Shown here: piece by piece, positions 6,880 to 35,671 of the stretch
Numbering within the stretch: position 1 is the first letter of the stretch
Layout of the letters: the number at the start of each line of letters is the position of its first letter
From: Cyclobacteriaceae bacterium
GTDB lineage: Bacteria > Bacteroidota > Bacteroidia > Cytophagales > Cyclobacteriaceae
NCBI GenBank assembly: GCA_020832305.1
Contig: JAFIEV010000087.1
Location: 1 to 64,000 of the forward strand
Length of the DNA: 64,000 nt
Direction: 5' to 3'
Made by a program: the position numbers and the translations under genes
Notes under the pieces: generated by a model
Seen by the model: the letters and a program-made list of their open reading frames with translations, nothing else
What the model was told of the DNA's origin: nothing
Databases searched by the model: none

Positions 6880-7464
6880 GTGAAAACAGGTAATGACACT
6901 ACCCATACTTATTATGCGGGAGCTATACAATACACTAAAACCCCGGCAGATCAGGAGCCCGTCCCGGACTTTATGATGACCGATGAGGGCAGGGTAGCAT
7001 TTAGCGAAACCACAGAGGGATTAAAGGGAACCTATCAATACTTTATCAAAGACCATTTGGGCAACAACCGGGTATTGTTTACTACTGAAACGACCACCAC
7101 TGTAATACAGGCGGGCATGGAGCCAGAAAACGCAAGCCAGGAAATGCAGCTTTTCAGCAATATAGAAGAAACCCGTCAGTTGGATGTACTTTTTAACCAT
7201 ACCGATGAAGGCAGGTATGCGGCCAGGCTCAATGGTGCAGATGGCAAAAATGTAGGCCCTGCCACCGCCATTAAGGTTATGCCCGGCGATACGATAAGGA
7301 TGCAGACCTATGCCATGTACCTGGGCAAGCCCAAGAACAAAAACCTGTTATCGGCAGGGTTGGGTGCTGCCCTGGCTTCGGCTTACGGATATGTACCCGG
7401 ATTACCGGAGACAAGTGTAATTAAAGAATTTTTTGAAGAAGCTATCCCAATGGCACGTGTTTAG
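6880..7464 (+). pseudogene. Rhs gene body fragment (last YD repeat, DHLGN motif and jelly-roll-like insert)
   Basis: The open frame encodes NDTTHTYYAGAIQY, then the Rhs hallmark YFIKDHLGNNRVLF, then the domain that precedes the core in Bacteroidota Rhs proteins (GMEPENASQEMQLF, TRQLDVLFNHT, AARLNGADGKNVGP, KVMPGDTIRMQTYAMYLG). It stops at 7462-7464, just inside repeat copy D, where EEAI runs into the CCAATGGCACG palindrome. Its normal continuation (LNYILFDKD...QVTEAG) is missing, and the core restarts only at about 7686. It is a stranded piece of the parent gene, with no sign of a start codon that fits. Confidence 0.75.
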
Positions 7465-7982
7465 CGCAGCGTAACGCGTGCCTCCCCGATGTTTGATGAC
7501 TTCCATTCTTCAAACTTTAAAGATAAAGCAGGGTCTGTGACCCGGTGTTGACAGGAAAATGTTCAACCTGGCTATGGTTGGCATTTCTGTGGTTTGTGTC
7601 TTATTGAAACGCTTGTATGTATCTGAAAATAATTAATTAAAACCTATAAGGTTGGAAAAATATTATAGGTTGAACCTGCATTTTAAAGGACTTTGGCTAC
7701 CGGCAGGTGACAGAGGCAGGTGACGGGGCGCATGAAGAATTATCGCTGGAGGTAATTTCACAAACCGAAGGCTATATGTATATTTATACGGTCCCGAATT
7801 CAAACGGAATTCGGGAAAGATTTGATCCCGTTTGGGAAAACGGGATCGACGATATCACCATCACCCAAACCCACTCGCAGATACTGGCAGTCTACGACTA
7901 CTACCCCTTTGGCATGGCATGGAACAACCCACTGAATCAATTGGATGTGCCGGTGAATAAGTACCTCTACCAGGGGAAAGAA
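7447..7982 (+). repeat. Rhs cassette direct repeat, copy D
   Basis: Full-length repeat unit with the GGGTC-TGT-GACCC hairpin at 7531-7543. The central palindrome at 7641-7671 has a decayed right arm (AATATTATAGGTT), and the double palindrome lies at 7793-7847. Its left end interrupts a recognisable Rhs frame, which shows where the repeat block joins the parent gene. Confidence 0.88.
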
Positions 7983-8822
7983 TGGGAAACAGACCTTGAT
8001 TTAAATACCTATGACTTCAATGCAAGGATGTATATGCTTTACCTGGGGAGAACTTTTCAGTTGGATCCTTTGGCTGAAGTGTATTACTCTTTTAGCCCAT
8101 ATAGCTGGGTAGCTAATAATCCATTACTATTTACGGATCCTACCGGAATGTGGATTGACTGGTCAGTGTTGCAAGGCAAAGAAAACAGAGAAAATAGAAG
8201 AGAATACAGGAAAGCATTTAGGGAAATTAAGAATAGTGGTGAAACTGGAAAAGCTGCTGTTAAATTTCTTAAAAGCAAAGAGTCTCGCAAGATCCAATTG
8301 ACTGCTAATTAATCAACAAAACCTGGTAGTTTTAATGGTAATTTGAATTTGGGTGGAACTGGTGCAGGGACACTTCCCGGTTTTGGTGAAAATGAAATCG
8401 GAGGAATTATCAATGTTGATGTATCTTCAGTTTTAAATTTTTATGAGTTAAATAATATCACTGATGTATTGTTAGAGGAAGTTATGCATGCTGCCATACA
8501 TTCCATGGAGGCTTTGGCAATGGGAGGAATCCAAAATGTGGATATTCCAAGAGGAAATGATGAGTTTACTGCCAAATCAATTGTTGGGCAAGTTGAAAAA
8601 GAAATTGGTAGAGAAATAACTCAGTTTACTCCCGAAGAAATTGCAAGAACATTTGGTAGAAGTGCTTTTGAAAGGGGAAGTACAGATGGCTATCATCAAA
8701 AGATGAAGGAATGGCAAAATGCGCAAACAGGCAGCTATAAAAGCGCAAAAACAAATAGTAATATACCTTCTTTATTTACCAAATTTGTCCAAAAACAAAC
8801 TATTAACAGAAAAAGGAAATGA
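7707..8822 (+). pseudogene. Rhs C-terminal cassette 4, peptidase-like tip split by an in-frame stop
   Basis: The core ([39 protein letters not shown]) reads into a unique tip, stops at TAA 8310-8312, and continues in the same frame to 8822 (from STKPGSFNGN on). One nonsense change therefore breaks an otherwise intact frame of about 371 residues. The part after the stop has LLEEVMHAAIH followed by NDEFTAKSIVGQ, resembling Rhs tips with an EExxHA motif and a later acidic ExxAK segment; a metallopeptidase-like or related hydrolase tip is a guess. The downstream lipoprotein gene overlaps the stop (ATGA). Confidence 0.75.
7793..7847 (+). repeat. In-frame double palindrome in Rhs core (copy D)
   Basis: The 9-bp (7793-7815) and 10-bp (7824-7847) stems are unchanged from copies A and B, although neighbouring positions differ among the copies. 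Confidence 0.85.
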
Positions 8823-8947
8823 ACAGAGTAATTGCTTTATTGATAGTTATACTAATTGGTTGCAACAAGAAAACCTATACATATAAAGACGTAAAATATA
8901 GTGTTTATACTGAAAAATTACCAAACACAAGAATTATGCATCATTAA
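8819..8947 (+). CDS. Short lipoprotein, probably a truncated immunity protein of cassette 4
   Basis: ATG overlaps the toxin stop (ATGA) and encodes 42 residues: a lipoprotein signal (LLIVILIGCNKK, Cys15) and a short tail ending RIMHH. Block X follows six bases later. The other putative immunity proteins are 110-229 residues long, so the gene is probably cut off by the block X join. The frame is too short for gene finders but has the expected place and signal peptide. Confidence 0.5.
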   Translation: MNRVIALLIVILIGCNKKTYTYKDVKYSVYTEKLPNTRIMHH

Positions 8948-8952
8948 ATTAT

Positions 8953-9055
8953 CCTCATGCGTTTTTGTAAAGCCTGCGATCAAGAAACATAGTTGTAAGT
9001 GATAAATAATCAAGAATCATTTGCCTCCTAATCACATCACTGATTACGAATGAAT
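8953..9055. repeat. Intergenic block X, copy 3 (5' part only)
   Basis: CCTCATGCGTTTTTGTAAAGC and the following AAGAAACATAGTTGTAAGTGATAA match the starts of the blocks at 2127 and 6579, with more differences. Similarity fades before the Rpn-family gene. Confidence 0.55.
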
Positions 9056-9133
9056 CTTTATTTTATGGTTTATTAACTTGTGAATTTAATCGATAATTTG
9101 TTAGTTGCATATCTTTTTATAACTCAAAACTTT

Positions 9134-9976
9134 ATGAGGTCCAGATATATCAACCCTTTCACCGATTTCGGTTTTAAAAAGATTTTTGGTTCAACCAATG
9201 CCAAAGAGATCCTGATAGATTTCCTAAACCAGGTACTCGGCGGTGAAGAAGAAATACAAGACCTCACGTACCACAATCTTGAAAAACTGGGAAATTCTAA
9301 GAGTGACCGGAGTTCTATTTTTGATATTTACTGCACCAATAATAAAGGTGAACGATTCATCATCGAATTGCAAAACGCTTCCCAGCGATGGCTCAAAGAC
9401 AGAAGTATCTTTTACGCTACCTATGCTATTCAGGAACAATCAGTAAAAGGAAAAAGCTGGGATTACGAACTCAAAGCCACCTATACCATCGTAATTATGA
9501 ACTTTCCACTTATGGATGGGGATCCACGATACCATAAAGTCGTAAAATTGATGGATACCCATACCCATAAGGTATTTTTCGACAAACTCTGTTTTGTATA
9601 TTTGGAAATTCCGAATTTTGCTCTAGAACTCGATGAACTTAACAATGATTTTGATCGTTGGATATATGTACTGAAACACATGCACCGATTGCAGGATTTA
9701 CCTGATGCATTGAAAAGTAAAATTTTTAAAAAAGTATTTGAAATTGCAGAAATTGCTAATCTAACGAGAGAGGAAATGAAAACCTATAATAAAAGTCAAA
9801 AAGCCAGTTGGGATAATTATGCACTACTGGAATCTGCAAAGATGGAAGGTAGAGAAGAAGTCATGACAACAATGGTTATCAAGCTATTTAAAGCAGGTGT
9901 AAGTCTTGACAAGATTTCCGAAGCCTCAGGACTTTCGATGGATGAATTAAAAATAATACTAGACAAAAACACCTGA
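9134..9976 (+). CDS. Rpn-family recombination-promoting nuclease / PD-(D/E)XK transposase-like protein
   Basis: The 280-residue protein begins MRSRYINPFTDFGFKKIFG, the typical opening of the Rpn (PDDEXK_2) family. The nuclease core follows: E15-like acidic positions, FDIYC at about 65 and FIIELQ at about 77, forming the D...ExQ active site. The C-terminal part is helical and ends in a short DKISEASGLSMDELKIIL motif common to this family. Rpn proteins cut DNA and promote RecA-independent recombination. I chose ATG 9134 because the family consensus starts there; a GTG at 9080 would add 18 unlike residues. Position beside the repeat array suggests a link with its rearrangements, but no direct evidence is visible. 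Confidence 0.85.
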   Translation: MRSRYINPFTDFGFKKIFGSTNAKEILIDFLNQVLGGEEEIQDLTYHNLEKLGNSKSDRSSIFDIYCTNNKGERFIIELQNASQRWLKDRSIFYATYAIQEQSVKGKSWDYELKATYTIVIMNFPLMDGDPRYHKVVKLMDTHTHKVFFDKLCFVYLEIPNFALELDELNNDFDRWIYVLKHMHRLQDLPDALKSKIFKKVFEIAEIANLTREEMKTYNKSQKASWDNYALLESAKMEGREEVMTTMVIKLFKAGVSLDKISEASGLSMDELKIILDKNT

Positions 9977-10164
9977 TCACTTGCGTTGGTCCTGAGCTGG
10001 TGCGTACGTACCTATATCGTCCTCGATACTATACCAAGTGTTCGGATTTTATTTTCCTCTCTAAAGGCAGGGGAGAAAGTTCCCATGCAGAGACCGGTTG
10101 CCAACCCTTTGAGCTTTCACGCCCAACTGCATGTCTGCGACTTTTGCATTTACAATGAAAAGCA

Positions 10165-10247
10165 GGGTCTGTGACCCGATCTTGCCGGAGGAGGAAAATA
10201 TTCCCTGTAGTCCTCGCTTCCTCCAAAGGCGTGCAGGTATGACGAGG
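10165..10247. repeat. Small palindromic repeats related to those in the Rhs array
   Basis: The GGGTC-TGT-GACCC hairpin and, 35 bp later, CCTCG...CGAGG around CTCCAAAGGCGTGCAGG. Both units are found within the cassette array (2445, 4699, 7531; 1936, 4106), so they are dispersed elements rather than parts of one transcript. Confidence 0.6.
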
Positions 10248-10386
10248 GTCATTATCCCTTAATCATTAAAATTACTTCTTTCATCATTTTCCTCCCATCC
10301 CCAACACCAGAGAATGTTCATTTGCCGGTTTATGCAAGATGAAATTCATCTTTGTCAGGGCTTGTATGTCAGAATACACCGTTGGC

Positions 10387-10455
10387 TGTCAATTTGGCAC
10401 TTTTTGATTTCTTCTGTCTACAATGGTTTGAGATTTGTTTAATGCCAAATTGACA
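10387..10455. repeat. Perfect 13-bp inverted repeat
   Basis: TGTCAATTTGGCA (10387-10399) and TGCCAAATTGACA (10443-10455) are exact reverse complements separated by 43 bp. They lie about 210 bp upstream of the NEW3 gene. They could be paired operator half-sites or an insertion scar; function unknown. Confidence 0.7.
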
Positions 10456-10667
10456 ATAATCAACCCAAAATGATTGTGTATGTTGAGTCCTGTTTTGACA
10501 TATGCCTTGATTAAAACAAAAATTGTTTTTTCTGTTTCTGATCAATTTGTCAGATTTTCTTCTTTCTACCGGAAGAACGACGGTTTTCCTTTTCTTTTTT
10601 ATTACGCAAGTATCACTACGATTATTCCTGAAATGTATTTCCTATTGTTAAACATAATAAACAGTAT

Positions 10668-11813
10668 ATGAAAATGCGTACTCATTTAATCGGCCAGCTT
10701 ATACTTATGTTTTGGCTTTGCAGCGCCGGTTCTGTCAGCTTTGCAGAACATGGTGTAAAACTTTACACTCCATTTACAAAAATCTCTGTTCCCCCGGGTG
10801 AATCCATCGATTATAATATCGACGTACTCAACAATGGTGAAGAGGCACAAAAGATTGATATTGTAGTGACGGGTATACCATCGTCCTGGACTTATTCTAT
10901 AAAATCCGGAGGTTGGTCTGTGCAACAGTTGGCTGTATTGCCCGGTGAGAAAAAAACGCTCAATCTCAAGGTAGATGTGCCAATGAGGGTAAATAAAGGA
11001 AATCACAGTTTCAGGGTACTCGCGCGCAATTTCGATGAATTGCCTCTGGTAGTGAATGTATCAGAACAGGGGACTTTCAAGACTGAGTTTACTTCTGATC
11101 AGGTAAATATGCAGGGCCATGCCAAGGCAAGCTTTACTTTTTCTACCAAGCTGAAAAATATGACAGGAGAGAAGCAATTATATTCTCTTCAGGCCAATGC
11201 TCCCCGTGGCTGGGAAGTTATTTTTAAGCCCAATTACAATCAGGGAACAGCGGTGGAAGTAGAACCCAATGCTACTACCAATATTTCCATTGATGTTAAA
11301 CCTCCTTACAATGTATCGGCAGGTACCTACAAAATACCCATAAGAGCCATCAATAATGCAACCTCGGCCGAAAATGAATTGGAGGTAGTGATTACGGGTA
11401 CTTATGAAATGGAATTGACAACCCCCAGAGGTATTTTAAGTACCAGTCTTACCGCAGGCAAGGAAAAGAAAATTGAAATGCTGGTGCGTAATACCGGCTC
11501 CAGCCCATTAAGTAATATTCGTTTTGCAGCTTCTAAACCACAGAGCTGGGAGGTGAGCTTCTCCCCCGATACCCTGCGTTTGCTCGAACCCGGCGCCAGT
11601 GCTGTTGTCAATGCAAGCATCAAAGCCTATGACAAAGCAATACCTGGTGATTATGTTTCTAACATCACGGCCAATACTCCGGAGGTTTCATCGACAGCCG
11701 CTTTCAGAATATCGGTTAAAACACCCTTATTGTGGGGTTGGCTGGGCATTATGATCATTGCAGTCTCTGTCGGTTTCATTTATTTTCTGTTTCGCAAATA
11801 CGGCAGGAGGTAA
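10668..11813 (+). CDS. Exported NEW3-domain protein with C-terminal membrane anchor
   Basis: The 381-residue protein has a signal peptide (LILMFWLCSAGSVSFA), then repeated Ig-like beta domains of the NEW3/COG1470 type: YTPFTKISVPPGESIDYNIDV...WTYSI, a second copy with GWEVIFKPNY, a third with WEVSFSPDTLRLLEPGAS. A single transmembrane helix lies near residues 352-374 (WLGIMIIAVSVGFIYFLF), followed by a short basic tail (RKYGRR). The domains should face the periplasm. The gene precedes ABC-2 transporter genes by 3 nt, an arrangement known from other genomes in which the NEW3 protein is thought to assist the transporter. Substrate unknown. Start ATG 10668; ATG 10674 is an alternative. Confidence 0.85.
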   Translation: MKMRTHLIGQLILMFWLCSAGSVSFAEHGVKLYTPFTKISVPPGESIDYNIDVLNNGEEAQKIDIVVTGIPSSWTYSIKSGGWSVQQLAVLPGEKKTLNLKVDVPMRVNKGNHSFRVLARNFDELPLVVNVSEQGTFKTEFTSDQVNMQGHAKASFTFSTKLKNMTGEKQLYSLQANAPRGWEVIFKPNYNQGTAVEVEPNATTNISIDVKPPYNVSAGTYKIPIRAINNATSAENELEVVITGTYEMELTTPRGILSTSLTAGKEKKIEMLVRNTGSSPLSNIRFAASKPQSWEVSFSPDTLRLLEPGASAVVNASIKAYDKAIPGDYVSNITANTPEVSSTAAFRISVKTPLLWGWLGIMIIAVSVGFIYFLFRKYGRR

Positions 11814-11816
11814 GCA

Positions 11817-12767
11817 ATGGAAAACCATGCGATAGAAATACATGGGCTCACAAAAAAATACGGAGATTATAAGGCAGTAGACAATCTGAATTTAAGCTTG
11901 TCAAAAGGTGAGATTTTCGGATTGCTTGGCCCTAATGGGGCAGGAAAGTCTACCACCATATTAATGCTCCTGGGATTGACAGAGCCTCACGATGGCAGTT
12001 TACGTGTATTTGGAATTGATCCTGTGCGAAACCCGGTGGAGGTTAAAAAACTGGTGGGTTATCTTCCCGAAGATGTGGGTTTTTATGAAAATATGTCAGG
12101 CCTTGAGAACCTTATATATACTGCCCAGCTGAATGGCCTGGGTAAATCTGAAGCAAAGGTAAATGCTGAGGAAATTCTTAAAAGGGTTGGTTTGGAAGAA
12201 CATATCCATAAAAAAGCGGGAAAATATTCCAGGGGCATGCGACAAAGGCTCGGTTTGGCTGATGTGCTTATTAAAAAACCGCATGTCATCATACTTGATG
12301 AACCGACATTAGGGATAGATCCTTCTGGTATAAGGGAATTCCTCGAACTCATTGTAAAATTGAGTAAGGAAGAAGGTATCACGGTAATGTTTTCGTCACA
12401 TCACCTGCATCAGGTACAAAAGGTATGTGACCGTGTCGGCATCTTCGTGAAAGGCAAACTACTCGCTGTCGGTGATGTTCAAAGCCTTGCCAATCAGCTT
12501 TTTTCTGAAAACGCATATTCGGTCTCGGCCGAAATACTGCCAAACACCCTGCCTCAAGGGGTTGATGCCTTGAAGGAAGCCATCCTGGCCATAGATAATG
12601 TCATAAAAGTGGATTGCCAGGACAATCACTTCCACATCGAAAGTAGTGAAGATGTTACCGACCAGATCGCGGAAGTAATTGTAAAGCAAGGTGCAGGACT
12701 TTGTCATCTTTCCAAAAAAGATTACGGTCTTGACGATATTTATTACAAGTATTTTGAAGGAGAATAA
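11817..12767 (+). CDS. ABC transporter ATP-binding protein
   Basis: The 316-residue ATPase has Walker A GPNGAGKST near residue 39, the Q-loop region, the signature YSRGMRQRLGLADVL near 138, Walker B HVIILDEPTLGIDPSG near 159 and the H-loop FSSHHLHQV near 193. It belongs to the ABC-2 (NatA/DrrA-like) class and powers the permease encoded 3 nt downstream. The C-terminal 90 residues form an extra domain as in many ABC-2 ATPases. The three genes 10668-13778 are separated by only 3 nt each and clearly form one operon. Confidence 0.92.
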   Translation: MENHAIEIHGLTKKYGDYKAVDNLNLSLSKGEIFGLLGPNGAGKSTTILMLLGLTEPHDGSLRVFGIDPVRNPVEVKKLVGYLPEDVGFYENMSGLENLIYTAQLNGLGKSEAKVNAEEILKRVGLEEHIHKKAGKYSRGMRQRLGLADVLIKKPHVIILDEPTLGIDPSGIREFLELIVKLSKEEGITVMFSSHHLHQVQKVCDRVGIFVKGKLLAVGDVQSLANQLFSENAYSVSAEILPNTLPQGVDALKEAILAIDNVIKVDCQDNHFHIESSEDVTDQIAEVIVKQGAGLCHLSKKDYGLDDIYYKYFEGE

Positions 12768-31337: not shown

Positions 31338-32612
31338 ATGATCCAGAAAAGTAAAATTGTCGATACATTGAAAAGTTACAAATCGGTAGAAATAACAGCG
31401 CCCCTAAAGTTTGTTTCAACGCGCATTGACCTGGTTTCTTCGAAAAGTGAGAGCAATAGGGCTTTGATAATCAATAAGATATCGGGGGAATTGTCTGAAT
31501 TACACAATTTGTCTGAGGCCAGGGACACCCGCACGATGCAGCGGTTATTGCAGTCAGATGATAATGTACTGGATGTGCTGGATGCTGGAACCACCATGAG
31601 GTTTATTACAGCATATTGCGCTATAACAGGACAAAAAAAGATCATTACCGGTACTCCGAGGATGCAGGAACGTCCGATCGGTGTACTCACCGATGCTTTG
31701 ACGGCACTCGGATGCAAGATTAAATTTCATGGAAAAGATGGCTATCCTCCGGTTGAGACACTGGGTTTCGATGGTCAGCGCACCCGAAATCTTAGGGTGC
31801 GCGGAGATATAAGCAGTCAGTACATTTCGGCATTACTAATGGTTGCACCTCAATTGCCGGAAGGGCTCAGGCTTGAACTGGAAGGCCCAATAGGCAGCAG
31901 GCCATACATTAATATGACAATTGCACAGATGCAACATTTTGGTGCCGAGCTGGGCTGGGTAAATGACAGGATCATTGATGTCAGACCCAAACCTTACGAT
32001 GCTACCTCGTACACAATAGAGTCAGACTGGTCGGGTGCAAGTTACTGGTTTAGCATAGCGGCATTGAGCAAGCAGTCTTTTATTTCATTAAAGGGTCTGA
32101 AAGACAAATCCCTACAGGGAGACCGGGCCATTGTAGATATTATGCAACATCTCGGGCTTCAAACTGAATTTTATGATGGAGGTTTGCATATACAGGCAGG
32201 CAGAGATTCCCGGGCATTTAGCTGTGATTTTGTTGCTTGTCCAGACCTGGCACAAACCGTAGCTGTGGCTTGTGCAGGCCTGGGTATAGAATGCACTATG
32301 ACCGGTCTCGAAAGTCTCAGAATCAAAGAGACCGACAGGATTGCCGCACTTCAAACAGAACTGGCCAAATTGGGCGCTTCATTAGATGAAACAGAACCAG
32401 GTGTCTGGAAAGTAAGCGGAGGTGGTGAAAAGGCTTTATTGGGTGAAAAACCTGTTTTTGAAACCTACGATGATCACCGGATGGCAATGGCATTTGCTCC
32501 TTTGGCAATTATAAGGCCCATAGTTATTTTAGAACCGCACGTTGTGGAAAAATCTTATCCGGGTTTTTGGGATGATCTGACAAAGGCAGGGTTTATACTG
32601 ACGTTCCATTAA
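31338..32612 (+). CDS. aroA: 3-phosphoshikimate 1-carboxyvinyltransferase (EPSP synthase)
   Basis: The 424-residue protein has VSSKSESNRALI at about 33-44 (substrate-binding SKSxSNR), LDAGTTMRFITAY at about 81-93 (the usual N-A-G-T has become D-A-G-T), RMQERPIGVLTDAL near 108, ESDWSGASYW near 230, RIKETDR near 331 and TYDDHRMAMAF near 373-383. It transfers enolpyruvate to shikimate-3-phosphate. A terminator follows at 32652-32675. Confidence 0.94.
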   Translation: MIQKSKIVDTLKSYKSVEITAPLKFVSTRIDLVSSKSESNRALIINKISGELSELHNLSEARDTRTMQRLLQSDDNVLDVLDAGTTMRFITAYCAITGQKKIITGTPRMQERPIGVLTDALTALGCKIKFHGKDGYPPVETLGFDGQRTRNLRVRGDISSQYISALLMVAPQLPEGLRLELEGPIGSRPYINMTIAQMQHFGAELGWVNDRIIDVRPKPYDATSYTIESDWSGASYWFSIAALSKQSFISLKGLKDKSLQGDRAIVDIMQHLGLQTEFYDGGLHIQAGRDSRAFSCDFVACPDLAQTVAVACAGLGIECTMTGLESLRIKETDRIAALQTELAKLGASLDETEPGVWKVSGGGEKALLGEKPVFETYDDHRMAMAFAPLAIIRPIVILEPHVVEKSYPGFWDDLTKAGFILTFH

Positions 32613-32651
32613 GAAAGCAGCGAAGTAATTATATTAGTGAAACAAAAAAAA

Positions 32652-32675
32652 CCTTTGTATCGAACAAAGGCTTTT
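32652..32675. terminator. Terminator after aroA
   Basis: CCTTTGT (32652-32658) pairs with ACAAAGG (32664-32670), followed by CTTTTT on the plus strand and preceded by a run of A, so it can act in both directions. It separates the aro genes from the next two genes. Confidence 0.7.
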
Positions 32676-32809
32676 TCAAGCTCCTTATCCGAAGTTGGCT
32701 TCAAATAAAACTAACGAAATAATATGGCGAGGAAACAAAAACCAGAAAATAAAAGTAAAATAGCATGATAGGTTGACAATAAATATTAATAGATATAACT
32801 TCAAAACAA

Positions 32810-34099
32810 ATGACAGCAGTAGTTGGCATATTAAATAAACATGCAGTTGCATTAGCGGCTGATAGTGCTGTAACCGTTGGAGGAACGAATGGCAGAAAAA
32901 TTTTTAATAAAGCCAATAAGGTTTTTACACTATCCAAACTTCATCCTGTCGGCATAATGATTTACAACTCAGCTTCTTTCATGACTACCCCTTGGGAAAC
33001 CATCATAAAGGTGTATAGAGACCAGTTGGCAGACAAATCATTTTCCACCTTAAAGGAGTATCAGGAGGATTTTTTGAAATTTGTCAGAACTAAGAAATTC
33101 TATACAACTCCTGAAATTCAAATTGCATTTCTGCAAAATTTCTCACTAGATATTATCAATTCTATAATTAATGAAGTTGCTAATCAAAATAGAGTCTTAA
33201 TTGATAACCCAACTCACGAGAGTAGAGAGCAGTTCTTAATTTTATTTGAAGAAAAACTTGACAACTTAATTCTTGATTGGAGTAACTCAAAAGATATTTG
33301 TTTAGAATTTTCCAATTATACATTTGAAGCATTTGCATTTTATTCGACCCAAATTTTTGAAAATATAAATCAGTTTCGTTTTGTTTCTAACGGGATTAAG
33401 CTAACAGAGATTTTGCTGCTTAAAATAAAACAAGTTGTATATTCTATTCTTAAAGCTAAAGTGGACTTTTCAATTTACACTGGTTTAATATTTAGTGGCT
33501 TTGGTGAGGATGAAATATATCCGCAACTTATAACTGTTAATGTTTCTATGGTTATTGATAATAGATTGAGATATTACATAAATGAGGATAGGGCAGCATC
33601 AATTTCCAATGAGAATAACGGGGCTGTATGTCCATTTGCCCAAACTGATGTGATTGACACAATTCTGACTGGTATAGACCCTTCTCTTGACAATATTTAT
33701 CTCAATAACTTTGATGCACTTTTCAAAAAATACAATCAAGCAATAATTGATAGCATTGGTAATGACAACCAGCTTCTAGTTGCTCAGATTCAACAACTTG
33801 ACATTGAGAAAATTGTAAAGACTTTCAATGAAATAAATCATAACATCAAGCGAGAAAATTATATAGCGCCATTGATGAATGCAGTAAGTAATTTATCCAA
33901 AGAAGATTTGGCTGAAATGGCAGAAAGTTTAATATATTTAACCTATCTTAAAAGACGAATTACATTTGCAGAAGAAAGTGTTGGAGGACCAGTTGATGTT
34001 GCATTAATTTCAAAAGGCGATGGTTTTATTTGGATTAAACGTAAACACTACTTCAAACCCGAACTGAATCAACATTTCTTTGAAAACTATTTCAAATAA
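32810..34099 (+). CDS. Proteasome-like Ntn hydrolase with large unknown insert
   Basis: The 429-residue protein begins MTAVVGILNKHAVALAADSA. After removal of Met1 the residues Thr1, Asp17 and Lys33 fall exactly at the catalytic positions of proteasome beta subunits and HslV (AAD17 and FNK33), and the surrounding strands align. HPVGIMIYNSASF follows, like the early proteasome core. A later segment, SGFGEDEIYPQLITVNVSM (about 222-240), resembles the G-x-D/pxLY strand pair of the second half of the fold, so about 150 residues, mostly helical, appear inserted. The C-terminal third contains PFAQTDVIDTILTGIDP and helices. No signal peptide. Self-processing at Met1 would expose the nucleophile. Function unknown; peptidase or amidase activity is inferred. 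The next gene lies 6 nt downstream. A TTGACA...TATAAC-like pair upstream (around 32773) is not of the usual Bacteroidota type. Confidence 0.75.
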   Translation: MTAVVGILNKHAVALAADSAVTVGGTNGRKIFNKANKVFTLSKLHPVGIMIYNSASFMTTPWETIIKVYRDQLADKSFSTLKEYQEDFLKFVRTKKFYTTPEIQIAFLQNFSLDIINSIINEVANQNRVLIDNPTHESREQFLILFEEKLDNLILDWSNSKDICLEFSNYTFEAFAFYSTQIFENINQFRFVSNGIKLTEILLLKIKQVVYSILKAKVDFSIYTGLIFSGFGEDEIYPQLITVNVSMVIDNRLRYYINEDRAASISNENNGAVCPFAQTDVIDTILTGIDPSLDNIYLNNFDALFKKYNQAIIDSIGNDNQLLVAQIQQLDIEKIVKTFNEINHNIKRENYIAPLMNAVSNLSKEDLAEMAESLIYLTYLKRRITFAEESVGGPVDVALISKGDGFIWIKRKHYFKPELNQHFFENYFK

Positions 34100-34105
34100 A
34101 ATAAC

Positions 34106-34330
34106 ATGAAGACACTAACTTTCAACAACATTTTTTCAACTAATACATTCTCAAACACGGATGTTCTTTCGGCATTTAAACAGGAACCTGAAAAGCCGAT
34201 GACTATTAAACAAGGAATGTCAGCAAAAGAAATTTCTGAAGTTGTTTCTGAAAAGGTAATTGCTGTAGTAAAAGAACAATTTCATGCTACAAAGGAGGAA
34301 TTTAAAAATCAGGCTAAAAAAAATAGTTGA
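34106..34330 (+). CDS. Small protein partnered with the proteasome-like hydrolase
   Basis: The 74-residue protein starts 6 nt after the hydrolase gene. Residues 1-35 are polar and probably disordered (NNIFSTNTFSNTDVLSAF, PEKPMTIKQGMS); residues 36-70 form an amphipathic helix (SAKEISEVVSEKVIAVVKEQF, KEEFKNQA). It ends KKNS. I know no family. Its position suggests a substrate, adaptor or regulator of the upstream enzyme. Confidence 0.6.
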   Translation: MKTLTFNNIFSTNTFSNTDVLSAFKQEPEKPMTIKQGMSAKEISEVVSEKVIAVVKEQFHATKEEFKNQAKKNS

Positions 34331-34387
34331 AATTTTTCTGATTAAAAAGTCAAAAGTTACGATCGCTTTGGTTTTATCCACATTTTG

Positions 34388-34418
34388 AATATTTTTTTGA
34401 AGCAGTCAAAAAAATATT
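34388..34418. terminator. AT-rich perfect hairpin after the proteasome-like gene pair
   Basis: AATATTTTTTTGA (34388-34400) and TCAAAAAAATATT (34406-34418) form a perfect 13-bp stem with the loop AGCAG. The arms contain only two G/C pairs, so termination would be weak. It lies in an otherwise empty 270-bp gap before the convergent M42 peptidase gene. Confidence 0.4.
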
Positions 34419-34600
34419 TTAAAATATAGTTAACAATAACAATATCCAGAGTCACTTAAAATAACAGAACGACCTCAGGCTTGGCTCAAAGTAGGGTGAA
34501 GTGGATATTTGAGAATTCTGTCCCGCATCTACTTTTGTGATGCTTTAACATTTTTTTATCTCCTAAATCACCTACCGAGCCAAGAGCCAAAACGTCTTAT

Positions 34601-35671
34601 TTATTTTATATACCTGAAATCATGGCCATCGGGTAATTGCTTTAAAAATTGCAGCATAAGTTCGATGAGGTTTTCCACATCATGTTTATTGGCCATCTCC
34701 ACAGTCGTATGCATATATTTCAGGGGAAGGGAAATAAGTGCAGAAGCCACTCCTTCATTTGAATAAGCAAAAGCATCGGTATCGGTACCGGTGGTTCGGG
34801 AAGAGGCGGCACGTTGAAAAGGAATATCTTGCTTTTCAGCTGTTTCTATCAACATCTTAAGCACATTATTTTGAACAGCAGGTGCATAGGTAAGCACCGG
34901 TCCTTCACCCAGCCTGATATCACCCTGTTTAATTTTGCTGTAACCCGGGGCCGTTGTGTCATGGGTGACATCGGTAATAATAGCCAAATGGGGCTTAATG
35001 CGGTGTGCTATCATTTCGGCACCACGCAATCCGATTTCTTCCTGTACTGAATTGGTAACATACAGTCCGAAAGGTAACTTAACAGACTGTTCAAATAATC
35101 TCCTGGCCACTTCAGCAATCATAAAACCTCCAATCCGGTTATCCAACGCCCTGCCTACAAGATATTTATCATTCATTTCGCTGAGCTCATCATCAAATGT
35201 TACCATACAGCCTACATGAATTCCCATAGCCAGCACTTCCTCATCAGAATTGGCACCACAGTCTAGTACTACATTTTCTACATTCATTTTTCCTTCTTCA
35301 CGTTTTTCACGCACATGAATGGCCGGCCATCCAAATACTGCCGGCACGGGGCCTTTATCTGTATGTATCTTTACTTTTTTGGAAGGAGCGATCATATAAT
35401 CAGAACCTCCATTGCGAATTACATGAATGTAACCTTCCTTGGTAATATAATTGACAAACCAGGAGATCTCATCACTGTGTGCTTCAATGACAACTCTGTA
35501 TGGCGCTTCAGGATTGATCACCCCTACTACCGTTCCATAGGTATCAGAAATATAAGTGTCGATATAAGGTTTAACATAATCAAGCCAGATTTTCTGGCCT
35601 TCTGCTTCGTAACCGGTCGGTGTCTCACTGTTGAGATACGCGTATAAAAATTTTTTGCTCTTTTGATCCAT
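34601..35671 (-). CDS. M42-family metallopeptidase (glutamyl aminopeptidase/endoglucanase-like)
   Basis: The 356-residue protein has the M42 metal ligands: H in EAHSDEISW (about 63), D in GRALDNRIGG (about 177), EE in SVQEEIGLRG (about 211), D in IITDVTHDT (about 235) and H in KYMHTTVEM (about 320). The enzyme is a dodecameric tetrahedral aminopeptidase in other organisms, cytoplasmic and active on peptides released by proteases. No signal peptide is present. It is convergent with the proteasome-like gene pair, which may be chance. Confidence 0.9.
   Translation of the reverse strand: MDQKSKKFLYAYLNSETPTGYEAEGQKIWLDYVKPYIDTYISDTYGTVVGVINPEAPYRVVIEAHSDEISWFVNYITKEGYIHVIRNGGSDYMIAPSKKVKIHTDKGPVPAVFGWPAIHVREKREEGKMNVENVVLDCGANSDEEVLAMGIHVGCMVTFDDELSEMNDKYLVGRALDNRIGGFMIAEVARRLFEQSVKLPFGLYVTNSVQEEIGLRGAEMIAHRIKPHLAIITDVTHDTTAPGYSKIKQGDIRLGEGPVLTYAPAVQNNVLKMLIETAEKQDIPFQRAASSRTTGTDTDAFAYSNEGVASALISLPLKYMHTTVEMANKHDVENLIELMLQFLKQLPDGHDFRYIK

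Follow-up and report, generated by a model that had tools for sequence, protein, structure and literature searches.

Two adjacent genes, which we call A and B, lie on the forward strand of the window, the whole stretch of 64,000 nucleotides that we analyzed. Gene A (32810-34099, + strand) encodes a proteasome-like Ntn hydrolase of 429 residues that resembles the PMI-4 class (see below), as judged from its open reading frame, its homologs, and its fold; its product begins with MTAVVG. Gene B (34106-34330, + strand) follows after 6 nt and encodes a small partner of 74 residues. The preliminary description of this DNA had delimited both frames correctly, and both are real genes. As it had also stated, the pair is flanked by aroA (31338-32612) on one side and by a peptidase gene on the other (34601-35671, convergent), and it occupies an inserted interval (32613-34600). 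In relatives, e.g., G003 and G004, this site is empty: the convergent peptidase gene comes directly after aroA, separated by tens of bases, and there is neither A nor B. The G+C content of A-B is 0.32, against 0.42-0.46 in the flanking genes, which bears out the claim that the pair is AT-rich. The presence of A is patchy, since it is carried by 4 of 146 relatives and by 7 of 395 genomes of the phylum. Together with the empty site, this supports the horizontal gain suggested earlier.

The 2-kb insert yielded neither an integrase nor terminal repeats nor a conserved RNA. The search of Rfam over 32560-34700 gave nothing at the gathering score, and a conserved RNA downstream of B was not found either, the DNA similarity to the nearest homologs never extending past B. 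The gap between aroA and A contains one terminator-like hairpin (32652-32670, + strand), where 0.8 are expected in shuffled sequences. The proposal of an atypical promoter could not be upheld, as sigma-70-like sites are no more common in the region than in shuffles. By eye, we spotted an imperfect inverted sequence in the noncoding end of the insert (34470-34590), with about 100 nt between CAGGCTTGGCTC and GAGCCAAGAGCC.

To model the proteins with AlphaFold2, A was continued in frame through its stop codon into B, with TAA read as Gln for modeling only (pLDDT 89.2, pTM 0.84). The top Foldseek matches of the model of A are solved proteasome beta chains and Anbu. VIA-align superposes it on proteasome beta with a Z of 17.4 and an rmsd of 3.2-3.5 over 185 residues, with residue 2 (Thr2) falling on beta residue 1; the list of solved structures used by VIA is full of proteasome chains, and the absence of other families from it carries no weight. 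The proteasome-like Ntn fold predicted in the preliminary description is thus recovered. Sequence profiles, which are independent of the structure, point the same way: the family profile of A matches Thermoplasma beta (E 0.0016) and residues 1-24 of HslV (E 0.0018). No family of Pfam, NCBIfam, or PADLOC was over its cut-off for A or B. Pfam matches of the two proteins to Snf7 and DDE_Tnp_4 were below the cut-offs of these families, and PDB profile matches to cullin-3 (E about 0.004) fall in the helical insert of A and were taken as helical-repeat noise.

Residue conservation was counted over 117 aligned full-length homologs of A. The proposed N-terminal nucleophile, Thr2 (32813-32815, + strand), is Thr in 114 of them and Ser in 3. 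In each of the 117 this residue is encoded by the second codon, so that the removal of Met would expose it. Asp18 (32861-32863, + strand), which aligns with HslV Asp17 and is the equivalent of proteasome Asp17, is found in 117/117. The equivalent of proteasome Lys33 is Lys37 (32918-32920, + strand) and not Lys34: Lys37 is placed on Lys33 of Thermoplasma acidophilum and is invariant (117/117), the loop before it being 3 residues longer than in Thermoplasma beta in the profile alignment, whereas Lys34 is a Lys in only 14/117 homologs and mostly Ser or Thr in the others. The preliminary description had proposed a Thr1/Asp17/Lys33 triad with exact spacing and had made its reading depend on the conservation of Lys34. 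The first two residues stand, but Lys34 turned out not to be conserved, and its place in the triad is taken by Lys37. The alignment indicates that the exact spacing noted earlier is a coincidence. For beta Ser129 and Asp166/Ser169, no counterparts are clearly retained.

The architecture of A departs from a simple proteasome subunit by two insertions. In the AlphaFold2 model, H1 (residues 62-73) and H2 (81-94) are followed by an all-helical insert (residues 97-220; 33098-33469, + strand; pLDDT over 90), by strands (224-276), and by H3 (291-316). A second insert (residues 317-363; 33758-33898, + strand) separates H3 from H4 (364-384), after which come S10-S11 (395-410) and a short tail. The first insert, once estimated at some 150 residues, has about 124, and what had been taken for a long C terminus consists of H3, the H3/H4 insert, H4, and S10-S11 (291-410), leaving a true tail of about 20 residues. 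Conservation among the 117 homologs and the profile alignment delineate S10-S11 and the signature E-x-VGGPxDVAxISKGDGFxWIKRKHYFxxxxN (residues 389-420; 33974-34069, + strand), a region where GGPVDVALISKGDGF of A aligns with GGMIDVAVITRKDGY of Thermoplasma. Lys410, Arg411, Lys412, Tyr414, Phe415, and Asn420 are each present in 117/117 homologs. The IKRKHYF block after S11 is constant from archaea to phages, with a conservation exceeding that of the catalytic loop. Its KRKxYF part, with which S11 ends, is a family signature of A.

Gene B encodes a protein whose predicted structure is disordered up to an amphipathic helix at residues 40-73 (34223-34324, + strand; AlphaFold2 pLDDT about 89), which is the conserved half of B in the family alignment of Bacteroidota. 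After dereplication at 80% identity, 91 loci had enough sequence to look for it. An open reading frame for 50-79 residues whose start falls in the range of -30 to +60 nt around the stop of A is present in 88 of the 91, so that the adjacent partner gene anticipated by the preliminary description is indeed almost always there, far above chance. With a stricter definition (ATG start, 45-80 residues), B is found in 83/91 loci, against 30/370 (8%) for a control made of the further long genes that this DNA contains. A few A loci lack B, e.g., L078, L092, L108, and those of one E. coli lineage. In archaea, Firmicutes, and phages, the start of B commonly overlaps the stop of A, which suggests that the two genes may be translationally coupled.

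The sequences of B fall into four families: that of Bacteroidota, including the B of the window; FFPxS, which spans archaea and many bacterial phyla; that of Firmicutes; and that of gammaproteobacterial prophages (ELREWQKxFNPS). Homologous families built from the main seeds at an E of 0.001 recruited 0 decoys, and those of Bacteroidota and FFPxS merge at an E of 0.01, also with 0 decoys. At this latter threshold a larger set places 67 of 129 unique sequences in one family, with 2 decoys among 774, and the remaining ones have only their size and place in common. An aromatic-Phe-x-Pro motif, [EDQ]-aromatic...F(F/N)xP, is present in the flexible region of 42/129 unique B sequences (13/774 shuffled or reversed decoys) and missing from the B of the window and from most B of Bacteroidota. 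The distances between A proteins correlate with those between their B proteins (r 0.80, n=23; r 0.72, n=30; p 0.0005), with mean identities of 0.23-0.26 for B versus 0.46-0.47 for A, and in most close pairs the substitutions in B are mainly at third codon positions. Given its placement relative to controls, this correlation, and the third-position changes, we regard B as a real gene that evolves with A; the substitution patterns indicate that it is under purifying selection and diversifies in step with A.

Several observations complement this picture of B. The B proteins of gammaproteobacterial prophages (L248-L250, L256, L258, L260, L262, L264, L268, L270, L272, L273) share the ELREWQKxFNPS motif and mostly have an aromatic-rich end (SxFxW-like), without the C-terminal helix of the other families. 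In the E. coli locus L294 (11902-13305), the annotated start of WP_231531568.1 lies upstream of the family-conserved MTAEI, which probably is the real N terminus, and no partner frame of at least 35 residues starts within 60 nt downstream. A tblastn search of B against phage genomes gave no match. Natural A-B fusions were sought in the tails of A and at loci L218, L219, and L228, where the match to A continued into B, and a stop codon always lies in between. The tail of A at locus L148 is Arg-rich and not a B. A second AlphaFold2 read-through model (L060, shallow alignment) was poor (pLDDT 70) and was set aside.

The preliminary description had presented A as an orphan. A scan of GTDB contigs recovered 233 loci related to A, and one of viral contigs 105; related genes were also present in 13 phage records and 10 plasmids. 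Homologs are present in archaea, many bacterial phyla, plasmids, phages, and satellites. A quick tree of A intermixes rows of archaea and bacteria; a row of Altarchaeum, for example, groups with one of Bacillota at 96%. There is also a published class that fits A. Fuchs, Alva and Lupas (2021, PMC8665760) described, without a function, the proteasome homolog with multiple insertions PMI-4 (example HDY66466.1), which has inserts after H1/H2 and between H3/H4 and no propeptide. Its hosts include many bacterial phyla (Bacteroidetes, Firmicutes, and cyanobacteria among them), Euryarchaeota, and phages, and it is the sole PMI class marked for phages (Table 1, PMC8665760). These authors found no genomic surroundings hinting at function (PMC8665760). 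We found in A the equivalents of Thr1/Asp17/Lys33, both inserts, and a host range that includes phages. By its insert positions and host range, we class A as PMI-4-like. Our literature search found no PMI-4 paper besides that of 2021. Of the earlier suggestion that this was an undescribed pair, the part concerning the enzyme does not hold, and the part concerning the association does: A-B is a conserved, mobile two-gene module for which no description was found in the literature searched.

The genes surrounding A-B in chromosomes are diverse and mostly ordinary. No PADLOC family matched more than 2/147 neighbors, and neither A nor B matches any defense protein listed in PADLOC-DB 2023. One chromosomal arrangement recurs. 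In Flavobacteriaceae (L027, L028, L029, L033; around 6990-12000), A-B lies 18-21 nt behind a gene for a 330-residue ALAD (hemB), in neighborhoods that also hold a CNNM/CBS gene and keep a stable order across several genera. On the rhizobial plasmids L148 (4733-6799) and L150 (7944-10450), A is close to genes for a multiubiquitin-domain protein and a ThiF-type adenylyltransferase, and in L150 also to one for a Clp proteolytic subunit. On these plasmids A is thus near ubiquitin-like modification operons.

In phages, A-B looks like an autonomous cassette. Some pairs are near holin and lysozyme genes, and in Streptococcus satellites A-B is end cargo. In E. coli it lies beside the repressor of a Rac-like prophage (15 genomes) or, in another prophage, is inverted between the antiterminator Q and the lysis region (9 genomes). 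Of the viral loci, 13/53 have both neighbors on the opposite strand, versus 11/165 control genes (p 0.0008). Positions beside the repressor, or inverted between Q and lysis, are typical of prophage-expressed genes, including exclusion and defense genes. The phage positions of A-B favor a protective role, expressed in lysogeny.

These results lead us to a proposal in which A is a specific enzyme of a mobile module, B its obligate regulatory partner, and protection the outcome; we give it a little less than an even chance. It takes the computed fold, conserved residues, pairing, co-diversification, mobility, and phage positions and adds to them a putative enzymatic activity of A, its contact with B, the status of B as regulator rather than substrate, and the protective role. 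The removal of Met1 would expose the Thr nucleophile of A, and the equivalent of Asp17 and the lysine at codon 37 would complete the triad. With its inserts behind H1/H2 and between H3 and H4, A is not expected to build an ordinary stacked-ring barrel; a clash of inserts with the ring stack has been argued for PMI-3/4 (PMC8665760). This would make an enzyme of narrow specificity likelier than a bulk protease, and A is probably a specific peptidase, amidase, or transpeptidase. B would be an obligate, co-translated partner that binds A; apart from its amphipathic helix it is mostly disordered, and it carries the aromatic-Phe-x-Pro motif in many lineages. In the version that we prefer, B would keep A inactive or set its target, until a signal, most likely a competing phage or other mobile element infecting the cell, frees or redirects A. 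The released enzyme could then protect the element or the host by superinfection exclusion or abortive infection. We infer the protective role only from carriage and position. Against it speak the absence of PADLOC matches for A and B and the stable linkage to hemB in Flavobacteriaceae, which looks like that of a housekeeping gene. The proposal as a whole is weakened by the B sequences outside the one homologous family (about half), by the few loci without B, and by the lack of clear counterparts to beta Ser129 and Asp166/Ser169. We advance tentatively, and consider rather doubtful, the idea that archaea, bacteria, phages, and satellites share in A-B an undescribed two-component protection system, whose non-barrel Thr hydrolase, gated by its small partner, hits a specific protein upon the entry of a competing element.

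How else could the pairing be explained? B could be the dedicated substrate or tag of A, cleaved at the aromatic/Pro motif to release a peptide or ligated to another protein in the manner of connectase, a relative that also has inserts and ligates proteins specifically (PMC8665760). The long inserts of A, unlike a barrel protease in the AlphaFold2 model, and the enrichment of the motif in a flexible region would suit this role. However, a substrate is expected to hold its exact site while the remainder drifts, and in the window and most Bacteroidota it is the motif that is missing and the helix that is conserved. We prefer a regulator for this reason, the conserved half in the family of the window being a helix and not a cleavage-like motif, and regard a substrate as somewhat unlikely. 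The helix could also fit an assembly factor, in which case B would be provided in trans, as a detached propeptide or C-terminal helix, and A-B would be an ordinary transferred quality-control peptidase. Propeptides of proteasome beta subunits aid assembly and the new homologs have none, and the double layer of Anbu is built by H5 helices (PMC8665760). The conserved half of B is a single amphipathic helix in the AlphaFold2 model, and the linkage to hemB is stable. Yet such a peptidase would leave unexplained the carriage by phages, satellites, and plasmids and the inverted prophage cassettes, and we find this reading unlikely.

A toxin-antitoxin pair, with A as a protease toxin and B as the antitoxin blocking it, would account for the small size and fast evolution of a partner that shares its transcript, on mobile elements, with a conserved enzyme. 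Type II pairs are two adjacent small genes of which the partner is always present; A and B are adjacent and mobile, but A has 429 residues and B is missing at some loci, which a lethal toxin would not allow. In addition, a toxin-first order with an overlapping antitoxin is the less usual one, and proteasome-like toxins are not known, making this explanation quite improbable. Finally, B could be a passenger or no gene at all, a small downstream frame arising by chance, as its poor sequence conservation and frequent lack of annotation might suggest. Against this stand its frequency (83/91 versus the 8% of controls), the decoy-free homologous families at an E of 0.001, and the third-position excess in most close pairs. 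They refute it for the Bacteroidota and FFPxS families, and although single phage loci could still fit, we give it hardly any credence overall.

Among the PMI proteasome classes listed in 2021, PMI-4 is the largest, and it had neither a function nor a genomic clue; the constant partner B is a first handle on it. Since E. coli prophages hold close relatives of A, common laboratory strains are suited to testing the function. Should the protective role be borne out, archaea and bacteria would share a new mobile system of immunity or exclusion with the proteasome fold at its core.

Compared with known systems, A shares with the beta subunits of the 20S proteasome and HslV (PF00227) the core of the fold, the N-terminal Thr, and the equivalents of Asp17 and Lys33, but it is twice as long, has two helical inserts, and lacks a propeptide and a visible unfoldase partner. 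A compact PF00227-type subunit has about 200 residues and no inserts, against the 429 residues and two inserts of A. The A of the window has no match to PF00227, and of 84 family members 2 have one, the best with an E of 0.0033; this does not place the family over the Pfam cut-off. The same genome has two further PF00227 genes, L140 and L141, one HslV-like (frame of 189 residues) and one Anbu-like (244 residues), labels that rest on length and sequence. Connectase is likewise proteasome-like, with a helical insert and a narrow specificity (PMC8665760). It differs in being only archaeal, with no adjoining small partner described (PMC8665760), and in its two-helix insert between S3 and S4, whereas those of A come after H2 and between H3 and H4. 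PHROG 5990 matches A over its full length (E 1.3e-112) and is a family of phages only, of unknown function and with no partner listed. With RexAB-like and lysogenic-conversion cassettes, A-B has in common its position beside the repressor in one E. coli prophage and the inverted cassettes in others, but the sequences are unrelated. With PMI-4, A has in common the proteasome-like fold, the long H1/H2 and H3/H4 inserts, the absence of a propeptide, and a taxonomic spread including phages. To this class as published, our analysis adds the constant partner B, the corrected lysine, the evidence of empty sites, and the positions in prophages.
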